From Diplonema papillatum (taxonomy: Eukaryota; Euglenozoa; Diplonemea; Diplonemida; Diplonemidae), in NCBI GenBank assembly GCA_030068145.1, contig JAPJBO010000009.1, forward strand, positions 661,509 through 725,508: 64,000 nucleotides of DNA, in the 5' to 3' direction. Of this stretch, positions 39,120 to 54,098 are shown one piece after another (position 1 is the stretch's first letter; the number at the start of each line of letters is the position of its first letter). A program made the translations under genes and the position numbers. Under the pieces are notes generated by a model. It saw only the letters and a program-made list of their open reading frames with translations. It had not been told where the DNA came from and did not search any database.

Positions 39120-39428
39120 AAGGGGGGGTCCGATTTTTTATTTTGCACCACCCCTTCAGGTTGTGGCAGGTGACCGCTGCATTCAAGCTAAACCGACTGC
39201 ACCAGGGTCCTGTTGAGTCAAAATCAGCACCAATAAATAAGTATGGCGGCACTGAAAGTGTAGGTCCACTGCAGAAGATGCCTGGAATGCTTTTTGCCAT
39301 TGCAGCACAGTCCGCCACCAAAACTGAACCAGCCCGGATAAAATAGATTAAATTGGTCATGCTTATGTGTTTTTGTGGTGAATCTTTTGTCTCCTTCTGT
39401 TTTTCTTCGGTCAAAAAAAAAAAAAAAG
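39120..39428 (+). mobile_element. Old diverged 3' end of the USP-type retroelement
   Basis: The last ~110 bp (AGCCCGGATAAAATAGATTA, GGTCATGCTTATGTG, TTTGTGGTGAATCTTTTGTC) match the 3' UTR of the elements at 40725 and 49131-51632 (CAGTAAAATAGAGTAAGG, ACATGCTTGTGTATTCGTGG). It ends in a run of about 15 A at 39414-39428. It is an older insertion of the same A-tailed family. Its left boundary is uncertain. Confidence 0.6.
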
Positions 39429-40724: not shown

Positions 40725-41588
40725 CCCGAGGGCCCAGTGGGTGTTGGCCAGGTTTGTCGGGGGCTCGGCCCACATCGTCAGCACGGATCGTCCACAGAGA
40801 GTGCGCAAGGTCAATTGGCCAGTGCTGACGAGGTCAGCTCATGTCCTGTGCGTGAGGGACCAAAAATGAGCCCACCAACCCCCACTGCTGGCATGCTCCC
40901 CCCCAGGCCCCCAACTACAACCCAAGAGTCATTATCCCCCCCACCCATCACTTTCCTTTTCGGTATGTTTTGTTTTTCCTCCTCCCCTTGGCACCCCGTT
41001 ACTCCCTCCCATGGTCCGTTCCACTCCCACTCTCTCTCCCTCACTCTCTCACTCTCTCTCTTGCACCCACTCTCGCCATCTCACTCACACACTTTTTTGT
41101 TTGTGTCCCTTCTGGAAAGGGGAGAAAAAAAGAGGGCTTCAATTCCCTCTCTATATTTTTTGGTTGTCCCTCCTCTTCCTCCTCCTCCTCGCTCCCCTAT
41201 TTTTCCGTTTCTTTTTATGCACGGAATGCCCTTCCTCTTATTTATATATTTCTCTTTTCCAGCCAAGGTATGCCGTGTTTTTCAGTATGTTTACCATTTC
41301 CCCCCCCACCACCTTCAAAACGCGAATACACAAACAGGCCAATACGCAAGGGAAAAAAAAAAAAGAGAACACAAAAATGCAAGGTCATGTGGGCGGCTCG
41401 CCACCACAGGACGAAAAGGGCTGGTGGTACGCCACCAAAACCAAAACAGCCCCCAGTAAAATAGAGTAAGGCGGACATGCTTGTGTATTCGTGGTGGAAT
41501 TTTCCTCTTTTCCCGTTTGGTTTCCGCGCCCATGAAAATGGAACCCCCATGAGCGCGTTACAGGGTCCCAAGTGCCGGGTGGAGCGGC

Positions 41589-41631
<43 letters not shown>
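40725..41631 (+). mobile_element. 5'-truncated copy A of the USP-type retroelement
   Basis: Nearly identical to 50733-51632: the last 46 codons of the ORF (ending SAHVLCVRDQK), the CT-rich 3' UTR and a 40-nt A tail (41592-41631). The left end is an abrupt truncation. No target-site duplication is visible. The near identity to copy B shows recent activity. Confidence 0.85.
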
Positions 41632-42043: not shown

Positions 42044-42071
42044 GTGCAAACCCGGTGTGGGAAGTGCCAGT
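42044..42071. repeat. Target-site duplication, left copy
   Basis: 28 bp beginning GTGCAAACCCGG and ending AAGTGCCAGT, repeated exactly at 49103-49130. It marks the insertion of the 7-kb retrotransposon between the copies. Confidence 0.92.
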
Positions 42072-42132
42072 AAAAAAAAAAAAATAACGCGAAATCGTTG
42101 AGAAAAGCACACACACACACACCAACACACGC

Positions 42133-45100
42133 ATGGCCGCCCCCGACCCGGGGGGTGGCGGGCCCCCCGCTCCGGCGGGCGGGGCCGGGACGGCTGCTGC
42201 CGCCCTCGGAGCAGGGACGGGCAGCCGGGAGCTGGCCGCTGCCTTCTCGGCAGGGGCAGCGGCCCTGTCGACGGCCGGGTGGCCGGGGTTCGCGTGCCCC
42301 GCCGCCGCGACACGGAGACCGACGGACGCCGCTGCGTTCGCCGCGTCTCTCCGGGCCGCCCCCCGGACGTTCGCTGAGGCGGTCGCGCGGGGAGAGGACG
42401 CTTCCGCCGCCGCCGCTGTCGATGCCGCCGTCGATGCCGCCGTCCCGACGTTCGCCGAGGCGCTGAGGCAGGGAAGACGCGCTCCCGCCGCAGCCGCAGT
42501 CGCCGCAGCCGCAGCCGCCGACACCCGTGTGAACACGGCGCAGCCCGCAGGCCGGAAGGAGGAAGTCTGTCGGAACTTCAACTTCCGGCGCGCAGGCTGT
42601 CGTCGTAGCCAGTGCCGGTACGAGCACCGGTTGCTCCCCATTTGCCCTGCCTTCAAGCAGGGTAGATGCCGGAACACCCGGTGCCCGGACCGGCACCAGC
42701 GCGCGGGGGAGGTACGCCCCTTTTTTTCAAACAACAAACCCACAGCGCCGTTTGCGAACCGCTCGTACCACCCCCCCCCTTTGCGAACCAAACAAACACA
42801 CACAGCACAGACAACCGGGCCGAGGCCTGCACGCTCCAGCAAGGGTGTGCAGGCCACGGCGCTACACGCCGTCGACGAGCTCCCGGAGGGACCGCAGCTT
42901 CCCGCGGTTCTGGACGCTTGGGCGAGAGTCCGCCGGGCGCAGGCGGAGGCGGAGGCGCTGGAGGAAGAGCACCTCCAGTGGTTTCGCAGCTGGGCCGCCA
43001 CGCCGGTGGTGGCCCTCTGTGGCCTTTGCGGGCGGTTGAGCGCCTCCGCCGGCGAGGCCGCTCAGCACGCCTCCCAGCACCGCAGGGAGACCGCGAGTCG
43101 GGGCTACGACGAGCTCGTCGTAGCCCACGTCGCCGAGATGGACGCATCTCTCGGCGAGATGCAGGAGATCTTGCGGGGGCTCGCCCCACAAGAGGAGGCC
43201 GAGAGGGCACTGGTGCCGAGCGCACCGCGGGCGGCGAGGGTGCCCCACCAGGGGTTTGCGTTCCTCCCGCCGCCGGTAGCCCCTGGGCCAAAGGAGCCGG
43301 CCGGAAGGGACGCTGGGATGCGTGAGGCATCCGAGGCCCCCCAGGCCGGCGATCTGCCGGTGGGGCGCCGCCTCTTTGACGAGGAGGTGGACTTCCCGAG
43401 GTCGTCGGCGGCGTCCTCGCCGGCGACTCCTCGGGACGTCGAGCTAGTCCCGGCGGGGCGTCCCAGGGCGCAGTCGTTGCCGGCAAGCAGGGAGGGCGAC
43501 CAGGCCCAGGCTGACCCCGTTGCCGTCCAGGCAGAACCCGCCGCCGCCGGGTGCGAGGCCGTTCAGGCCGACCTCGTCGCCGCTTGTGGCGAGGTCGACC
43601 TGGCTGACCCCGCAGACGCCAGGGGCGAGGCCGTCCAGGCCGACCTCGTCGCCGCTTGTGGCGAGGTCGGCCTGGCCGACCCCGCAGCCGCCGGGTGCGA
43701 GGCCGTCCAGGCCGACCTCGTCGCCGCTTGTGGCGAGGTCGACCTGGCCGACCCCGCAGTCGCCAGGTGCGAGGCCAGCCAGGCTGACCCCGCCGCCGCT
43801 GGGGGCGAGGTCGATCGGGCTGAACCTGCCGCCGCGGCCGCCGCCGGGTGCGAGGCCGTCCGGGCCGACCCCGTCGCCGCTAGTGGCGAGGTCGACCAGG
43901 CCGACCGAGCAGCGGCCGCCCAGGCCGAACCCGCGGCCGCCGGAGGCGAGGGAGTCCGGGCCGACCACGTCGCGGCTGGCGGCGAGGCCGGCCCGGCCGC
44001 CCTCGCAGGCGCCGCCCAAGCCAGCTCGGCACGGGACAGGCGGCATAGCCGGAAGTTCAGGCACGGGGTGGACCTGAGCGCCCTGCGAGGGAGCTCGGAG
44101 GCGAACCCCTTTCCGGATTCCGAGTCCGGGACTGGCTCTGGACCGGGCGAGGACGGGTCGGATTCGGGCTCCGAGTCGGACGACGAACTGGCTCAAGAGG
44201 GGGCGGGTGCTCCGCGGGCCGACGGGGGGGACAAGGGAGGCCCCGACCCCGGAGACGGGGGCGCGGGGGCGGGCGCAGCGCCGCCGAGCCAGCCGTCGGC
44301 CGAAGCGCCAGCAGCGGAGGGAGGGTCCGATCAGCGAGAACCCCCGGGAGGAGGCTGCCGGGAAGGAGCCCAGCAACCGGGCCAGGCCGAGGCGCCGGCC
44401 GGGGGCTCTGAAGCCCACCAGGGGCAGGGGGCCAAGCGCCCCGCATCGCGGTCCCCGGTCGGTACGCCGGCGGCCGTGCGCCGCAGACGGCCGGGAGGCC
44501 CCGAGGAAGGGTGGGAGACCCCCCCGTCCGGGCTCACCTGGGGGTACGTGCCGTCGGAGCCCAGCTTCCTGTCGGAGGGGGCCGAGGCGATGGATGGGGG
44601 CTTCCTTCGGCCGGGTTCGCCGGCGCCCGGGCCGAGCCAGCCGGCGCAGGGTTCGGAGCAAGCCTCGGCCTCTGAGCAGCGAGACGTCAGCGGCGGATCC
44701 GGCACCCCCGCTCCGGGGGTCGGATCACCGGAACCGCAGCAGCGACCCCCGGTAGACGCGGCGAGCCAACGCCTTCTGGAGAGGGTGTGCGGGGCCACGC
44801 TTGGGACTCCGGCGACTGGAGCCAAGCGCCCCGCGTCACGATCGCCCGTCGGGACGCCGGCCCCGGTGAGGCAGAAGCCCGACACGGGCCTGGGGAGGGG
44901 CGCGGGCCTGGTCGCCTCAGTGCGAGCCATCGCCGCGCGGGTGAAGGACAGGTTGGCGCAGCCCGGCCAGGGGAGGGGAGCGGCCATGGAGAGCCAACCC
45001 CCGGGTCCCCCGCAGTCCAGCTGGCCACTTACGCCCGTCCTGTTCCCGGACAGCGTGAGGGTGGCGCACGCGGCCGGGATAGCAAGCCCGGACCCGGAGA

Positions 45101-48100
45101 TTCACGTCTCCTTGGGAAGGGGCGGCGACGACCCGTGCGACGACGGGGACGTCCCCCGGCACCCGGGCCCACGAAGGAGGGGCCGACAGGCTCACTGGGC
45201 GGCCACAGGGATGGATGACTCCGCCGCCGCACAGGTCGTTTCCTCCGGGCGCGGAGGAGACGACCTGTGTTGCGACGGGGACATCCACCCCAATCCCGGG
45301 CCGCCAGGGGAGCCGCCCGCGGCCCCGCCCGTAGTAATTCCTGTCGTGCCACCGGTACCTCCGCCACCGGTTAGGGCTCAGCCGGCCGGGCCGCAAGGAG
45401 GAGCGGCGGTCTGCATCTGCAGGGATGCGGCGGGACCCGGGGAGCGGAGGGGCAGGCATTGCAGTTGGTGCCCCCGCTCCCGGGCCTACCAAGGTCGAGT
45501 GGCCGCTGGGCTGGAGCCAGTGCGGAGGCCCCCGCCCCCCCCGGCCCCGGGGGGGCAGGCGGCCCCAGGGGGGGAGGCGGCCCCGGGGAGATGGTTTCAG
45601 GGGGCGGCGCTCCCGTTCACCTTTGCCCAGGTAGCCGCGGCCAATGTGCCCACCCTGAACAGGGTCCCCACAACGGCGAAACCGCAGGTCGCCGCCCTGT
45701 TTGAGACTGTGCTCCGGGGGGCATCTGACGACGCGGGGTGGCTGCGGGTATATGCCTTCGCCCCGCTCATCTTGGCGGCCACCACTCGGGGAGGACGCAG
45801 AGCGGTGACAGAGGCCCTCCGCCGCCGGGTCAGACTCTGGAGGGACGGCCTGTTCGGGACGCTCTGGTCGGAGGCCTTGGCCATCACGGCTGGGAAGGCT
45901 CAAGGTCGCGCGCGCCGGCGTGCCTACCCGGTCGAGGACAACGACCACAGGGTCGAGCTCCAGACGGCGGTCAGGTCAGTGGATGACCTGGACGCCCCCA
46001 CCGTGCGCCAGGTCATCAAGCGGGCGCGGGACCGGTGTTACTCGCGGGCGGTGTCGGCGCTTTCGGCAGCGCAGACGGCCCCGCCAGACGAGGCCACCAT
46101 GGCGCAGCTCAGGGCCCTCCACCCGGCTGCCGAGGAGTGGCAAGGCGACCCGGCGATGCAGGGCCTGAACGTGGCACGGCCCTCGCCGAGTGCGGTTCGG
46201 AGACTGCTGAAGAAGATGCCGAAGGGCACGGCGGCCGGCCCCTCCGGGCTCTCTGCGCAGCACCTGCTGGACCTCTGGGACAGCTCCGGCTCCTTCAAGG
46301 AGGCTGTGGCAGACGCGGTATGGGCCCTCTCGTCCGGGAGGGTTTCGGCGGCGGCCAGGCCATACCTCTACGGGGCCAAGCTGGTCCCACTGGTGAAAAG
46401 AGGGGGCGGCATCCGACCCATCGCCTGCGGCGAGATTCTGCGGAGGGTGGCCGGAAAGGTCCTCGCGTCCGACCGGGTGGTAAAGGAGCTCGGGCAAAGC
46501 GTGCTCCTGCGAAGCGGGCAGGTCGGTGTCGGGGTGAAGGCCGGAGCGGACGCGGGAATTCTCGCCGTCCGTAGGGTGGCGGCCATGTACCGCAGGGAAG
46601 GCGGGGCGGGCAAGGGCATCCTCCAGATCGACCTGGCGAACGCATTCAACTCCCTGCAGAGGGAGGCGATCATTCAAAGCGCCAGCAGGCATGCCCCCCA
46701 GGTCTTGGCGTACACCATGGCGGCATACGGGAAGCACTCCATACTGCAAGTTGGAGACCAAACGCTCACTTCCGAGCGTGGGGTGCAACAGGGGGACCCC
46801 TTGGGGCCTCTCCTCTTCAGCCTGGCGCTGCAGGACGTCATCGCGCCGCCGCCGCCGCCGGCCGAGGCTGCGGCAGCGCCACAGGTCGGCCCGGCAGTCC
46901 AGCCGGCGCCGGAAGAGGCCCCGGGGGCGGGCGCTCAGGCTCCGCGGCCGGAGGAGCCCGCGGACCCCGCAGGAGCCGTGGAAGGCGGAGAGGGCCCTCC
47001 TGAGCAGGGGCCACCGCCACCGCACGAGCCGGGGCCAGCGCAACCGCCACCCGAGGACCCAGCCCACGGGGGCCCGGCGGAGCCCGGAGAGCCGGCCCTC
47101 GCGCTCCCGGGCCCGATTCCGCCGGCGCCGGTGGCCCAGATACCGCGAGGCGCCCCCGAGGATCCGGAGGGCGCCGGGCCAGTAGCACAGGAGCCGGCAC
47201 CTCAGGAGCAGCCGGAGGCCGCGCCCAACCACTCAGCGCTGAGCCGGGCCAGCCTCGAGCTCCTGACGTTCTACCTCGACGACGGGGTAACGGGCGGGGA
47301 ACTCGACTCGATCGCGCGATGGCTGTGCGAGTTCGAGCGGCGAGCCGCAGCAGTCGGTCTGAGCCTCAATAGGGGCAAGTGCAGACTGGCGATTGCCCCG
47401 GGTGCCGAGGTACCGGCGGGCCTAGACGGCATCGAGACGTGCTCCCTCGACGAGATCGAGCACCTGGGTGTGCCGTGCGGATCGCCGGAGAAGATCCGCG
47501 CGTTCGTTGAGCGGGTGGCACAGGGCGCCGAGAGGAAGCTGAGGGTGATCGCGTCCCTACCTGACGCGCACGTGGCGCTCACGCTGACGAAGTTCTGTGC
47601 CGGCTTCGTTGGAGTGGTGCACCTCATGCGCGCGACAGGGCCCGTCTTCGACTACGCGGGCATCGACCGCGTCACCCAGTCCTGTCTCGCGACGATCACC
47701 GGGATCGAAACCGATGACGCGTCGTGGACACAGGCGTCACTACCCGTCAGGATGGGCGGCCTCGGCCTCCACAGCTGTGCGGACGTGAGCGGGATTGCCC
47801 ACATCGCCGCGGCGCTGGACGGGGGGCCGCATCTCCCCGCCCTCGTGGCCCCGGCCCTGCTGCCACACCTCACGTGGCAGCAGGACGACACCGTCCAAGC
47901 GTCCCTCGTCGACCCGCGCCTTGCAACCTATGAATCCGTCCTGGAGAAGATCCAGGACGTCATGCAGGCACGAGCCGAGTACGAGGGGCGAGGACAGAAG
48001 GCATGGTCGTCCGCCTTGGCCACCGAGAAGAGGAAGAACCTTCTCGAGTCGCTGACGGAGGAGCTCGGCCACTCCGGCCAACTGCAGGGTCAGGCCCTGA

Positions 48101-48876
48101 CCCGGGCTCAAGACCGGATCCGGGCGCGGATCCAAAGCGGCTCCGGCAAGCACGCTTCGGCGTGGTTGTACGGCAACCCTGAGGCGGATACCACAATGTG
48201 GTTGTCTCCGGCCGAGCTGGCGGTGGCAGTCCGGCTTCGGTTGGGGCTTCCAATTGCGGCCGCGCCGGGGGAGTGCCGCCTTTGCGGGCACGGTGCGACC
48301 GACGTCAACGGATCGCACGCCCAGACGTGTTTCGGCAGCGGCCGCCGAACGCGCCTTCACAACGCGCTGCGTGACATCGTCGCCGACTTCGCTCGACGAG
48401 GACTGCTCGGTCCTTCCATCGAGCGAGCCGTGTTCGCTAACGCGCGGCGCAAGCGCCCGGACATCAGCTACGTCCGGGATGGCACCACCGTCCTACTTGA
48501 CGTCGCTGTCACGTACCCCCTACAACTCTCGCAGCCGCACTACGCAGCCCGGGCGGCGGCGGAGCCAGGGGGCGCAGCAGCCGCGTACGCTGTAGCCGTC
48601 AAGGAGCGTGTCTACAACGCAATCATTGCCAATGAGCCAGACCCGCGGGAATGGAAGGCGGTGCCGCTAGTTGTAGACACGTTCGGGGCCTGGTGCCCAG
48701 GAGCAATCACGGAGCTGCGGCACATTGCCCGCGCCAACGCCCTCCGTGAAGACCGGACCGTTTCGGCCGCCTGCCAGGACCTCTTCCACCGCTTGAGCTT
48801 TTCTATAGCCCGAGGGGTGGCAAGGATCGTCATTGCATCTGGTGGGGCGCGACCGGACGAAGCGGATCCACCCTGA
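42133..48876 (+). CDS. Retrotransposon polyprotein: zinc fingers, RT, RLE endonuclease
   Basis: 2247 aa. Residues 146-189 hold two CCCH fingers (C-x9-C-x4-C-x3-H and C-x7-C-x4-C-x3-H), and 296-313 a C2H2 finger. Residues ~460-630 are ~24-residue imperfect repeats rich in ADPVAAxGE. KRPASRSPVGTPA occurs twice (~767 and ~897). 2A-like motifs are at 1006-1013 (GDVPRHPGP) and 1049-1057 (GDIHPNPGP). The reverse transcriptase follows: RPIACGEILRRVAGKVL (~1429), IDLANAFNS with D1500, QQGDPLGPLLFSLAL (~1553), and FYLDD at 1713-1717. A ~130-residue Pro/Ala/Glu-rich insert separates the last two. A C-x2-C...H-x3-C finger is at ~2048 and a restriction-like endonuclease (RPDISYVRDG with D2110, LLDVAVTYP with D2123) lies at the end. 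In this class the protein nicks DNA and primes cDNA synthesis on the target. It acts in cis with its own RNA in the nucleus. The ATG at 42133 follows the 5' leader directly. Confidence 0.93.
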   Translation: MAAPDPGGGGPPAPAGGAGTAAAALGAGTGSRELAAAFSAGAAALSTAGWPGFACPAAATRRPTDAAAFAASLRAAPRTFAEAVARGEDASAAAAVDAAVDAAVPTFAEALRQGRRAPAAAAVAAAAAADTRVNTAQPAGRKEEVCRNFNFRRAGCRRSQCRYEHRLLPICPAFKQGRCRNTRCPDRHQRAGEVRPFFSNNKPTAPFANRSYHPPPLRTKQTHTAQTTGPRPARSSKGVQATALHAVDELPEGPQLPAVLDAWARVRRAQAEAEALEEEHLQWFRSWAATPVVALCGLCGRLSASAGEAAQHASQHRRETASRGYDELVVAHVAEMDASLGEMQEILRGLAPQEEAERALVPSAPRAARVPHQGFAFLPPPVAPGPKEPAGRDAGMREASEAPQAGDLPVGRRLFDEEVDFPRSSAASSPATPRDVELVPAGRPRAQSLPASREGDQAQADPVAVQAEPAAAGCEAVQADLVAACGEVDLADPADARGEAVQADLVAACGEVGLADPAAAGCEAVQADLVAACGEVDLADPAVARCEASQADPAAAGGEVDRAEPAAAAAAGCEAVRADPVAASGEVDQADRAAAAQAEPAAAGGEGVRADHVAAGGEAGPAALAGAAQASSARDRRHSRKFRHGVDLSALRGSSEANPFPDSESGTGSGPGEDGSDSGSESDDELAQEGAGAPRADGGDKGGPDPGDGGAGAGAAPPSQPSAEAPAAEGGSDQREPPGGGCREGAQQPGQAEAPAGGSEAHQGQGAKRPASRSPVGTPAAVRRRRPGGPEEGWETPPSGLTWGYVPSEPSFLSEGAEAMDGGFLRPGSPAPGPSQPAQGSEQASASEQRDVSGGSGTPAPGVGSPEPQQRPPVDAASQRLLERVCGATLGTPATGAKRPASRSPVGTPAPVRQKPDTGLGRGAGLVASVRAIAARVKDRLAQPGQGRGAAMESQPPGPPQSSWPLTPVLFPDSVRVAHAAGIASPDPEIHVSLGRGGDDPCDDGDVPRHPGPRRRGRQAHWAATGMDDSAAAQVVSSGRGGDDLCCDGDIHPNPGPPGEPPAAPPVVIPVVPPVPPPPVRAQPAGPQGGAAVCICRDAAGPGERRGRHCSWCPRSRAYQGRVAAGLEPVRRPPPPPAPGGQAAPGGEAAPGRWFQGAALPFTFAQVAAANVPTLNRVPTTAKPQVAALFETVLRGASDDAGWLRVYAFAPLILAATTRGGRRAVTEALRRRVRLWRDGLFGTLWSEALAITAGKAQGRARRRAYPVEDNDHRVELQTAVRSVDDLDAPTVRQVIKRARDRCYSRAVSALSAAQTAPPDEATMAQLRALHPAAEEWQGDPAMQGLNVARPSPSAVRRLLKKMPKGTAAGPSGLSAQHLLDLWDSSGSFKEAVADAVWALSSGRVSAAARPYLYGAKLVPLVKRGGGIRPIACGEILRRVAGKVLASDRVVKELGQSVLLRSGQVGVGVKAGADAGILAVRRVAAMYRREGGAGKGILQIDLANAFNSLQREAIIQSASRHAPQVLAYTMAAYGKHSILQVGDQTLTSERGVQQGDPLGPLLFSLALQDVIAPPPPPAEAAAAPQVGPAVQPAPEEAPGAGAQAPRPEEPADPAGAVEGGEGPPEQGPPPPHEPGPAQPPPEDPAHGGPAEPGEPALALPGPIPPAPVAQIPRGAPEDPEGAGPVAQEPAPQEQPEAAPNHSALSRASLELLTFYLDDGVTGGELDSIARWLCEFERRAAAVGLSLNRGKCRLAIAPGAEVPAGLDGIETCSLDEIEHLGVPCGSPEKIRAFVERVAQGAERKLRVIASLPDAHVALTLTKFCAGFVGVVHLMRATGPVFDYAGIDRVTQSCLATITGIETDDASWTQASLPVRMGGLGLHSCADVSGIAHIAAALDGGPHLPALVAPALLPHLTWQQDDTVQASLVDPRLATYESVLEKIQDVMQARAEYEGRGQKAWSSALATEKRKNLLESLTEELGHSGQLQGQALTRAQDRIRARIQSGSGKHASAWLYGNPEADTTMWLSPAELAVAVRLRLGLPIAAAPGECRLCGHGATDVNGSHAQTCFGSGRRTRLHNALRDIVADFARRGLLGPSIERAVFANARRKRPDISYVRDGTTVLLDVAVTYPLQLSQPHYAARAAAEPGGAAAAYAVAVKERVYNAIIANEPDPREWKAVPLVVDTFGAWCPGAITELRHIARANALREDRTVSAACQDLFHRLSFSIARGVARIVIASGGARPDEADPP
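43512..44010 (+). repeat. In-frame ~72-nt repeats in the retrotransposon ORF
   Basis: Seven or more imperfect units with the core GACCTCGTCGCCGCTTGTGG. They encode alternating ADLVAACGEV and DLADPAAAGCEAVQ. Length variation between copies of the element is likely. Confidence 0.8.
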
Positions 48877-49102
48877 TGCAGGGGGTAGAGTCACTGCATC
48901 GCGGGTTTTTTTACCGGGTCGGACCTGTTAGCAGTCACGCGCAGGCCAGTCCCGTGTCGCTGTGAGACAGGCGTTCGCAGTGTGCTGAAGAAGCATTTCT
49001 TTGGACTACCGCTCCGGAAGCAACCGGATACCGGCAGCCCCGCTGTACCAACATGGCAAGTACAGTGTCCCGCGCTCCAAAAAAAAAAAAAAAAAAAAAA
49101 AA

Positions 49103-49130
49103 GTGCAAACCCGGTGTGGGAAGTGCCAGT
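49103..49130. repeat. Target-site duplication, right copy
   Basis: Exact repeat of 42044-42071, directly after the A tail of the 7-kb retrotransposon. Confidence 0.92.
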
Positions 49131-50881
49131 ATGGCCACATGGCTCAAGAGGACCTGGACATAACCATCCTCCCCGTAGGAGCTGGCTCGGTGCAGAGGTG
49201 TCTCGACGAAGCGTTCGCGTGGTCCTCGGCAGGGGCGGACTACAGATGCGAGAACTGCGGGGTCAGGGGGCAGACCCAGACTAAGCCCTCCTTTAGCCAG
49301 GCCGGCACAGCGGTGATCATTCAGCTACAAAGGGCGCGCCCTTTCGACTGCACGGACAGGAGAGCAGTGCCCACAGATACCACAATAACTTTGCCAGGCC
49401 TGGGCAGACAGCTGGAACTCACAGCGGTGGTATCGCACACAGGGGGGAACAACGCGGGCCATTACAGGGTGCACGCGTACAACGAACACGCCGAGAGGGA
49501 GCAGAGGTGGACGATTCTTGATGGTGAGCATGCCAGTTTTTCGTCCGTGCCGAGGTTCGAGGGGACGGACACCTTTCTTTTAGTATACCAGCCGGCCCCT
49601 GAGCAGCCCGAGACCTCGAAGGACACAGAGAGGAGAGATGGCACGCCGTCGACGGTGGATGGGCCCGAGCCGGCTGGCAACAGGCCCGGAGTCAAGGGGC
49701 CAAGCCCGGAGGAACTCCTCGCGAGGTTCGTGGAGGCAACGAGGAGAAGGGTGGCAGACAGAGCCTCACAAGGCAGGAGGCACGAAGCCGAGGCAGCCGG
49801 GGACATCGAAAGGGATTCACTGAGCTCGGAGTCGGGCGAGCCCAACTCCCTGTCGACAGGTCCACGGATAGCCACAAAGTCGAGGGGAACTGGATCGGAG
49901 GAGAAGGCGGACGGGCAGGCCTTTCATGAGTCCCCCCCTGATACCCCCCGGGCCCCTGTTCCGGACACCGAGCCTGAAGAAGCTGCGGCAGGGCTGGACA
50001 CCTCAGAGCCTCAGAGTACGGCAGCAAGGGGGTTGACCCCAGCTAAGGGAGTGCCCGACATGGACGCAGAAGGAGGAGCAGTTTTCAACAGGCGGAGGAA
50101 AAGGAGCTCGGACCGGGGAGACACTGCTGAAGGAGAAGGCACACTCCCAAGTCGAATCCGGGGGGTACCGAAGAGAGCAAGAGGACCGGAGGGCACGTGG
50201 GAAGTCATCGACCTTACAGAGGATGAAGAAGTAGCTCCCCCCAGCACGACCGAGGAGATGGACATAGACAGAGAAGAAGGCTTGGCCTTCCGCCGTGCAA
50301 AGGCTCTGGAAGAAGAGGAAGCCCTCACCGCCCACGCAGTCGCAAAACTCGCCAAAGACCCCCATAGACACCCGGATGAGTGGCGCAGAGTCAAAGTCCC
50401 AGAGTCAGTTGGTACCCGGTTCCCAAGGAGTCTCCACACGCAGCCAGCAGAGGGCAACAGAGGAGGGGAGAGCGGATGGGCAGCCCTGAACTGGCTGGCG
50501 GATGAGTGGCAGAGAGACAGGGCGAACTTTATCGACTTGTTCCGAATCCAGACGTGGCTCTACACAACAGCCCGGGAGCACGACATCCAAGCCCTGGCAG
50601 AAAAACCGCAGGAGGAGGGGTGGTTCACGGTCAACACCCTCCGAAAAGCAGCGCGAGATTTGCTAGGTCTCGAGCTCACGGATGGAGCGGAGCTCGAGTA
50701 CCAGGAAGGCACCGCCGCCATAGTAGGGCCGAAGAACCCGAGGGCCCAGTGGGTGTTGGCCAGGTTTGTCGGGGGCTCGGCCCACATCGTCAGCACGGAT
50801 CGTCCACAGAGAGTGCGCAAGGTCAATTGGCCAGTGCTGACGAGGTCAGCTCATGTCCTGTGCGTGAGGGACCAAAAATGA
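49103..50881 (+). CDS. USP-type deubiquitinase fragment with SIM, retroelement ORF
   Basis: About 592 codons of an ORF whose 5' part is missing. The first ~150 residues are the C-terminal half of a ubiquitin-specific protease (peptidase C19). They include the zinc pair CGKC (49115-49126) and CENC (49247-49258), the strand TAVIIQLQRARPFDCTDRR, and the His box VVSHTGGNNAGHYRVH with catalytic-type His at 49460-49462, followed by RWTILDGE. The Cys box would lie in the missing 5' part, so this copy cannot be active. An acidic, disordered region follows, with EVIDLTEDEE at 50201-50230, a textbook SUMO-interacting motif. The C-terminal ~130 residues (from about EHDIQALAEK) look folded but I do not recognise them. 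The frame also runs open leftwards through the A tail and 3' UTR of the 7-kb element, which is accidental. No reverse transcriptase is present, so the element may be mobilised in trans or carry RT further upstream. Confidence 0.82.
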   Translation: MQTRCGKCQYGHMAQEDLDITILPVGAGSVQRCLDEAFAWSSAGADYRCENCGVRGQTQTKPSFSQAGTAVIIQLQRARPFDCTDRRAVPTDTTITLPGLGRQLELTAVVSHTGGNNAGHYRVHAYNEHAEREQRWTILDGEHASFSSVPRFEGTDTFLLVYQPAPEQPETSKDTERRDGTPSTVDGPEPAGNRPGVKGPSPEELLARFVEATRRRVADRASQGRRHEAEAAGDIERDSLSSESGEPNSLSTGPRIATKSRGTGSEEKADGQAFHESPPDTPRAPVPDTEPEEAAAGLDTSEPQSTAARGLTPAKGVPDMDAEGGAVFNRRRKRSSDRGDTAEGEGTLPSRIRGVPKRARGPEGTWEVIDLTEDEEVAPPSTTEEMDIDREEGLAFRRAKALEEEEALTAHAVAKLAKDPHRHPDEWRRVKVPESVGTRFPRSLHTQPAEGNRGGESGWAALNWLADEWQRDRANFIDLFRIQTWLYTTAREHDIQALAEKPQEEGWFTVNTLRKAARDLLGLELTDGAELEYQEGTAAIVGPKNPRAQWVLARFVGGSAHIVSTDRPQRVRKVNWPVLTRSAHVLCVRDQK

Positions 50882-51632
50882 GCCCACCAACCCCCACTGC
50901 TGGCATGCTCCCCCCCAGGCCCCCAACTACAACCCAAGAGTCATTTTCCCCCCCACCCATCACTTTCCTTTTCGGTATGTTTTGTTTTTCCTCCTCCCCT
51001 TGGCACCCCGTTACTCCCTCCCATGGTCCGTTCTACTCCCACTCTCTCTCCCTCACTCTCTCACTCTCTCTCTTGCACCCACTCTCGCCATCTCACTCAC
51101 ACACTTTTTTGTTTGTGTCCCTTCTGGAAAGGGGAGAAAAAAAGAGGGCTTCAATTCCCTCTCTTTATTTTTTGGTTGTCCCTCCTCTTCCTCCTCCTCC
51201 TCGCTCCCCTATTTTTCCGTTTCTTTTTATGCACGGAATGCCCTTCCTCTTATTTATATATCTCTCTTTTCCAGCCAAGGTATGCCGTGTTTTTCAGAAT
51301 GTTTACCATTTCCCCCCCCACCACCTTCAAAACGCGAATACACAAACAGGCCAATACGCAAGGGAAAAAAAAAAAGAGAACACAAAAATGCAAGGTCATG
51401 TGGGCGGCTCGCCACCACAGGACGAAAAGGGCTGGTGGTACGCCACCAAAACCAAAACAGCCCCCAGTAAAATAGAGTAAGGCGGACATGCTTGTGTATT
51501 CGTGGTGGAATTTTCCTCTTTTCCCGTTTGGTTTCCGCGCCCATGAAAATGGAACCCCCATGAGCGCGTTACGGGGTCCCAAGTGCCGGGTGGAGCGGCG
51601 TAACAAAAAAAAAAAAAAAAAAAAAAAAAAAA
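49131..51632 (+). mobile_element. USP-type retroelement, copy B (body and A tail)
   Basis: Main part of the 5'-truncated copy. Its first 28 bp are separated from it by the 7-kb insertion (42044-42071). The ORF ends at 50881. A 720-nt CT-rich 3' UTR and 29 A (51604-51632) follow. The 3' 900 bp are almost identical to 40725-41631. Confidence 0.85.
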
Positions 51633-53893: not shown

Positions 53894-53938
53894 GGGGGAC
53901 AAAATCTGACTTGCCACCTCCTCGCGGTGTCCCCTGCA
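53894..53938. repeat. Dispersed hairpin repeat, copy 2
   Basis: Identical to the copy at 52141 through TGTCCCCTG. Here it leads straight into the CCCGCAAA array. Confidence 0.75.
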
Positions 53939-54098
53939 AACCCGCAAACCCGCAAACCCGCAAACCCGCAAACCCGCAAACCCGCAAACCCGCAAACCCG
54001 CAAACCCGCAAACCCGCAAACCCGCAAACCCGCAAACCCGCAAACCCGCAAACCCGCAAACCCGCAAACCCGCAAACCCGCAAACCCGCAAACCCGCA
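53939..54098. repeat. CCCGCAAA minisatellite, about 20 copies
   Basis: Perfect 8-bp repeats. The minus strand at 11880-11930 has a short degenerate version after the same CCCCTGCAAACCC junction. Confidence 0.97.

Follow-up and report, generated by a model that had tools for sequence, protein, structure and literature searches.

A 64,000-nucleotide stretch of the Diplonema papillatum genome (GenBank assembly GCA_030068145.1, contig JAPJBO010000009.1, positions 661,509 to 725,508 of the forward strand), here called the window and numbered from its first letter, contains a truncated copy of a young, abundant and giant non-LTR (long terminal repeat) retrotransposon, family A. Our preferred reading, to which we assign a probability of about 0.6, is that this single element carries an AlkB domain, an OTU domain, a reverse transcriptase (RT) and a ubiquitin-specific protease (USP), and that the two deubiquitinase-type domains would protect it from ubiquitin-dependent restriction. 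An earlier note on the same DNA had recognized the C-terminal core of a USP at 49103-50881, had asked whether a USP can be a retrotransposon component at all, and had proposed to look upstream for a Cys box and an RT. Both are found in longer copies of family A, where the USP lies in the same frame as the RT.

Copies, domain order and copying of family A

The genome searched comprised 271,365,524 bases in 2910 contigs. The open frame of the window copy, used as a protein query, gave 109 rows from the best 74 of 1674 candidates, which is a lower bound; at least 38 of them (counted by hand, the window included) are family A rows in which at least 536 residues are covered at 98% identity or more. 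When the 3' untranslated region (UTR) was searched as DNA, 40 of the 41 matches spanned all 714 bases at 99-100% identity (best 40 of 152 candidates, again a lower bound), which indicates recent activity of the family. All eight distinct places read have an A run right after the 3' end, and the earlier description of a repeat family with A tails is thus borne out. Past this run the flank is readable at six of the eight places and is different in all six, and family A does not show the one specific target site typical of R2, NeSL and CRE elements. Several 3' ends lie at contig ends. Telomere targeting was considered for family A and rejected, because both contigs of this kind that were read (C428 and C321) stop within the A run and no two of the six readable flanks agree; an assembly break is the simpler reading.

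The domain order of family A is AlkB, zinc fingers, OTU, R2-like RT, a zinc knuckle with an endonuclease-like motif, and USP, as pieced together from overlapping copies and from an in-frame spacing shared by four of them. The copy on C364 holds AlkB (44.9 bits) and OTU (20.9 bits) in one frame, that on C805 holds OTU (21.8 bits), zinc fingers and RT, and that on C321 joins RT (76.8 bits) to USP (32.4 bits, positions 6-254 of the UCH profile); the Pfam cut-offs are 31.2 bits for AlkB (PF13532), 23.3 for OTU (PF02338) and 23.9 for UCH (PF00443). In C364, C6, C1171 and C703, the AlkB and USP parts are separated by exactly 9822 bases, a multiple of three, on the same strand and in the same frame, with open frames of 4088, 4088, 4080 and 3953 codons, respectively. 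The first Met lies 223 codons into the C364 frame, which gives a protein of about 3865 residues. Between AlkB and OTU, this frame has two similar, strongly hydrophobic stretches, seen by eye and unusual in the protein of a long interspersed nuclear element (LINE), that are possibly membrane helices.

Further support for this arrangement was provided by a sister family, A2, found at no fewer than 16 further places and 71% identical to the window frame over residues 3-182, with a USP about 67-71% identical to that of family A. One A2 copy (C233) has a single frame of at least 3737 residues from Met with the same domain order, and its AlkB (45.4 bits), OTU (26.9), RT (73.3) and USP (32.8) matches are all above the cut-offs; the four-domain order of A2 is taken from this one frame. 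The nearest solved relatives of the family A RT are R2 proteins (9nl2, E 7.6e-08, PDB search). Past the RT, both A and A2 have a zinc knuckle, CxxC..H..C, followed by RPR(S/W)(I/V)DVT, which matches no profile and which may mark a restriction-like endonuclease of the PD-(D/E)xK type. The AlkB domain has the motifs HTD, a distal H and RVSLTYR, presumably its HxD and R motifs.

The ends of the copies bear on how the element is copied. A 27-base sequence that we take to be the diplonemid spliced leader occurs 632 times in the genome at up to two mismatches, against none for a reversed control. A query of 481 bases taken at the 5' end of the A2 copy on C233, with the leader beginning at about query position 14, gave at least 56 matches (best 40 of 767 candidates scored). 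Thirteen other rows begin at positions 9-15 and extend beyond the leader, three more consist of the leader only, and among the matches listed positions 1-8 are reached by no row except the query's own place. At two of the 13 leader-start places (C845 and C1585) there is also an AlkB stretch with 100% identity to the family A one. The leader joined directly to the 5' UTR was found at 80 places at up to two mismatches, some of which may be other elements, and at none in the control. Together with the A runs at the 3' ends, these leader-start copies fit reverse transcription of a trans-spliced, polyadenylated RNA. We propose, with this support, that family A RNA probably receives the host spliced leader by trans-splicing, and a poly(A) tail, before it is reverse transcribed into the genome. 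Of the spliced-leader places, the first 100 listed are scattered among numerous contigs, a distribution that suggests abundant retrocopies of trans-spliced RNAs. For the C364 copy, a start at the spliced leader was rejected, since its junction is unique in the genome and is a flanking repeat, not the 5' end of the element.

A search with the AlkB stretch gave 22 matches at 86-100% and 128 at 78-81% identity (150 of 324 candidates scored). One of the 128 was read (L047, C264:23700-30300) and is a different LINE of about 2000 codons, with Pfam matches to AlkB (45.1 bits), to an APE-type endonuclease of the exonuclease-endonuclease-phosphatase family (35.2 bits) and to RT (74 bits). Its AlkB domain and that of family A share 77% identity, and their ratio of nonsynonymous to synonymous substitution (dN/dS) is 0.33. 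The AlkB module is therefore common to LINEs with different endonucleases. L047 also carries the motif GDVEQNPGPG, presumably 2A-like, and no spliced leader was found within the 6.6 kb examined.

Conservation of the USP and a second USP-bearing element

The USP domains of the longer copies all score above the UCH cut-off, at 32.4 bits in A, 32.8 in A2, and 82.2 and 74.4 in a second element, family B, described below. Aligned with two host USPs, the A and A2 domains keep the catalytic Cys, the Asn two residues ahead of it, the His box, the Asp and two CxxC pairs (the family A boxes are TTNSCYLQ, HTGGNNAGHY and WTILDG); four other host loci gave no Cys-box match and were left out of the alignment. 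The best solved relative of the family A USP is USP15, a weak match (E 0.028). Other UCH matches in the genome are much stronger (best 205.8 bits) and resemble ordinary USP genes.

Comparison of A with A2 by the Nei-Gojobori method gave dN/dS values of 0.23 for the USP (282 codons), 0.18 for the RT, 0.22 for the thumb-endonuclease region, 0.36 for OTU, 0.49 for the C-terminus and 0.56 for the zinc-finger stretch ahead of the RT. Judged by these ratios, the USP of family A is under purifying selection. The sequence EVIDLTEDEE, which the earlier note had read as a SUMO-interacting motif, is present (VIDLTEDEE) in all 10 family A sources, corresponding to seven of seven distinct places with the window among them; as A2 has a gap there, the motif is not counted as a conserved component.

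A genome search with UCH scored 149 places of 935 candidates, and 112 of these were grouped by score, by hand, as family B. Fourteen of the 112 were read. Nine have frames open over 1562-1585 codons; four of the remaining five keep part of the RT region, and one has only the part past the RT, with the USP. The frame has a GIY-YIG match near the N-terminus (22.9 bits in B1 and 22.4 in B2, against a cut-off of 22.6), continues with central RT-like motifs (FTTMYDQL, GIPMGANASP and FIDDL) and ends in a full USP. The RT region matches RVT_1 weakly in B1 (E 0.11) and not in B2, gave no PDB match up to E 10, and showed no profile similarity to LINE RTs in hhalign (probability 0.1). A scan of IMG/VR with family B returned 152 pattern matches and no relative. 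The insertion sites are simple sequence; in all nine copies examined the 3' end has a run of at least 6 C, and in four of the nine the 5' end has a run of at least 15, the other copies perhaps not having been followed to the 5' end. Family B is probably Penelope-like, its RT not being secured, on the basis of the N-terminal GIY-YIG and of RT motifs that we take to be of the Penelope type.

In the comparison of B1 with B2, the USP has a dN/dS of 0.15, the RT region 0.08 and GIY-YIG 0.10, as against 0.71 in the linker and 0.76 in the initial 78 codons, and the catalytic residues are kept in all seven family B USP rows aligned. The USPs of A and B are only 18-22% identical to each other, which does not exceed the identity of either to the two host USPs aligned (16-25%). 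In addition, the family B profile finds the solved USP12, USP46 and USP36, compared with the weak match of A to USP15. The low identity and the different solved relatives make two captures likely, and the two USPs were thus probably acquired separately, as far as sequence comparison can tell.

The window copy and its nested surroundings

The window frame 49103-50881 matches UCH at 20.3 bits (E 4.5e-4; profile positions 198-254, frame residues 104-162). Taken alone this is below the cut-off of 23.9; the longer copies of A and A2 exceed it, and the USP core named in the earlier note is confirmed. The Cys box is absent here because the copy is truncated. The protein is 98.3% identical to that of the C321 copy over 597 residues. 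The features of the region are the following, all on the + strand.

49115-50881: 3' part of the family A open reading frame, a 5'-truncated copy, with the C-terminal half of the USP, a linker and the C-terminal region; stop codon at 50879-50881
49412-49588: UCH-matching stretch of the USP with the His box and Asp region (HTGGNNAGHY ... WTILDG), from the Pfam profile and the alignment with two host and seven family B USPs
50882-51632: family A 3' UTR and A tail (A tract 51605-51632)
40725-41631: second family A 3' end, more truncated, with A tail; 99.2% identity over 866 bases (40725-41590 against 50737-51601), then an A run
39310-39380: diverged piece of only 72 bases that matches the family A 3' UTR at 77.8%
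42044-42072: left copy of the 29-base target-site duplication of element C; the truncated family A copy starts with its last 17 bases
42073-49102: element C, a separate LINE (open reading frame 42088-48876, 2262 codons; RVT_1 34.8 bits), with an A tail to 49102
49103-49131: right copy of the 29-base target-site duplication of element C, identical to 42044-42072

At the truncation point (TGTGGGAAG), a longer copy reads ...GAAGTTAAG-TGTGGGAAGTGCC and the window ...GTGCAAACCCGG-TGTGGGAAGTGCC, so that family A sequence begins at 49115. The stretch named in the earlier note starts at 49103; the open frame there is real, but 49103-49131 is the target-site duplication. This duplication flanks the 7-kb element C, which was therefore inserted into, and split, an already truncated family A copy. 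Likewise, of the three 3' ends that had been proposed, the one at 40725 holds, whereas near 39120 only the short diverged piece at 39310-39380 is found.

The frame of element C gave no UCH or OTU match up to E 10 in Pfam. By eye it has CCCH-like zinc fingers and motifs (GDIHPNPGP) that we take to be 2A-like, and its insertion lies 29 bases past the A tail of another element. At 53936-54098, the 8-mer GCAAACCC occurs in 20 perfect copies; it resembles GCAAACCCGG, which adjoins the truncated family A copy, and the repeats are perhaps telomere-like. The C-terminal region past the USP (50380-50878) is partly kept in A2 (42% over residues 432-554) and gave no Pfam match up to E 10. A scan of the window with Rfam found nothing. 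The OTU and AlkB domains, the spliced-leader start and family B lay beyond what the earlier note had considered.

Role of the deubiquitinase-type domains and relation to known elements

The first question is whether the USP belongs to the element at all. The earlier note had allowed for retrocopying of a host USP gene in trans, which would make the copies processed ones produced by LINE machinery, and the window copy, which starts inside the USP and has an A tail, looks the part in a genome that also holds the stronger, ordinary-looking UCH matches. This explanation is refuted by the 9822-base spacing and shared frame of AlkB and USP in four copies; several copies have RT or AlkB in frame with the USP, as does the diverged A2, where all four domains share one frame, and the A and A2 USPs are only 16-22% identical to the two host USPs aligned. 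An assembly or nested-insertion chimera, placing an RT element beside a USP repeat by chance, might be imagined in a region so rich in nested elements, where element C split the window copy and several family A 3' ends fall at contig ends. It fails equally, because neighbours brought together by chance would not be met again in frame, with one spacing in four A copies and an unchanged domain order in A2, whose USP is about 67-71% identical.

What the USP does is less constrained. It might be a ubiquitin-binding domain that is no longer catalytic, as the distance of family A from the USP consensus and the weak similarity to its best solved relative would allow; this is improbable, since the catalytic residues are kept in A, A2 and the seven family B rows, and dN/dS is low in both families. 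Processing of a giant polyprotein, the USP cutting between the domains of a protein that would be convenient to cut at this length, is very unlikely. Known USPs need a ubiquitin-like tail ahead of the cleavage site, and no Pfam match to such a tail was found in the A, A2 and B frames scanned. The USP and OTU could also act where the element inserts, deubiquitinating proteins of chromatin or repair (histones, PCNA) and not an element protein. An RT protein works on nuclear DNA, and Bao et al. (2010) proposed a repair-related role for transposon OTU and Ulp1 domains (PMC2836005). We regard this alternative as rather unlikely, though it deserves to be taken seriously, as the sequences offer nothing that separates it from self-protection.

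Protection of the element itself is the reading we favor. The USP and OTU would act in cis on the ribonucleoprotein of the element and strip off ubiquitin, which if left in place would direct it to the proteasome or prevent integration; the AlkB domain may remove methyl marks from the element RNA. Several observations weigh against this reading. The OTU match of family A is below the cut-off in both copies scanned, and the A2 USP has RQCD where A and B have RQHD. The linkers of A and A2 have dN/dS of 0.37 ahead of the USP (28% identity) and 0.28 after it, so that the contrast with the USP is moderate in A and sharper in B; the stretch past AlkB, at 0.89, is under little constraint. Moreover, dS is near saturation in several A/A2 segments, and the 110 codons just ahead of the USP are saturated and unusable. 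Finally, the AlkB stretches of A and A2 are nearly identical (pN 0.002, pS 0.007) beside other parts that differ greatly, from which it follows that A and A2 exchanged segments and that the segments differ in age.

Among known elements, R2 is similar in its RT; to our knowledge it has no such accessory enzymes, and family A differs further in that its copies lie in varied flanks. Family B resembles the Penelope-like elements with an N-terminal GIY-YIG, namely Naiad/Chlamys, in the position of this domain and in simple-sequence insertion sites, and is unlike them in ending in a full USP; its RT is without profile confirmation (Pfam E 0.11).

NeSL and Utopia elements also encode one protein with zinc fingers, a central RT, a C-terminal zinc finger and a restriction-like endonuclease (putative in family A), and nematode NeSL and one Utopia element have in addition a cysteine protease of the ubiquitin/SUMO world (PMC4640811). 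This protease is Ulp1-like and N-terminal (PMC4640811), in contrast to the C-terminal USP, the OTU and the AlkB of family A, which also differs from NeSL in the absence of a single target site. Elements of the CRE clade of trypanosomatids (SLACS, CZAR) share with family A an RT, a restriction-like endonuclease (putative, by motif, in family A), an A tail, zinc fingers and euglenozoan hosts; CRE elements insert into spliced-leader RNA genes (PMC12278014), unlike A and A2, whose 5' copies begin with the leader, as from a trans-spliced template. The main text of that paper, on the trypanosomatid mobilome, has no mention of ubiquitin, OTU, AlkB or protease.

Deubiquitinating-type domains are found in DNA transposons too: OTU and Ulp1 in Ginger1, Ulp1 in Mutator, OTU in Helitron elements and, as a USP, the Peptidase C19 joined to a DNA transposase in Trichomonas (PMC2836005). 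By contrast with Ginger1, Helitron and the Trichomonas element, the elements described here are retroelements, with two deubiquitinase types in one protein of A and a USP in two families. An AlkB-type domain encoded by a retrotransposon is known from orchid Ty3/Gypsy elements, where it has N6-methyladenosine (m6A) demethylase activity (PMC9289625); those are LTR elements with AlkB in an additional open reading frame, unlike the LINEs described here, in which it is fused in frame. Thus, mobile elements with Ulp1 and OTU domains, LTR elements with AlkB and the joining of a USP to a DNA transposase are already known. No retrotransposon with a USP turned up in a literature search that did not extend to subscription journals or Repbase Reports, so that absence from print is not shown. 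The search found no paper pairing Penelope-like elements with a ubiquitin-specific protease, and for non-LTR retrotransposon with ubiquitin carboxyl-terminal hydrolase it returned only unrelated papers, judged by title and the start of the abstract. A paper on Mucor, from the same search, has an OTU domain in a gene listed apart from transposons. The D. papillatum genome paper reports 6181 contigs of at least 200 bases, 280,293,864 bases in total and the largest above 1 Mb, with 52% repeats and about 2500 gene models annotated from retroelements (PMC10161547); the words "ubiquitin" and "Penelope" are absent from its main text.

Cysteine proteases of the ubiquitin/SUMO world have long been known in mobile elements, and the sources consulted offer suggestions and not a tested role. 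The elements described here suggest that USP-bearing elements fight ubiquitin-based control. Because a USP is present also in a probably Penelope-like element of the same genome, retroelements of this host are probably under ubiquitin pressure in general. A bolder version, which we hold only tentatively and at less than even odds, is that ubiquitin-based restriction is a major diplonemid defence, against which two unrelated classes of retroelements independently captured USPs and one LINE stacks OTU, USP and an RNA-demethylase-like domain as an anti-restriction toolkit. The combination of OTU, USP and AlkB in one element with a distant USP in another suggests that ubiquitin is a pressure shared by both, and D. 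papillatum, in which gene replacement is reported to work (PMC10161547), is a system where this pressure can be tested.

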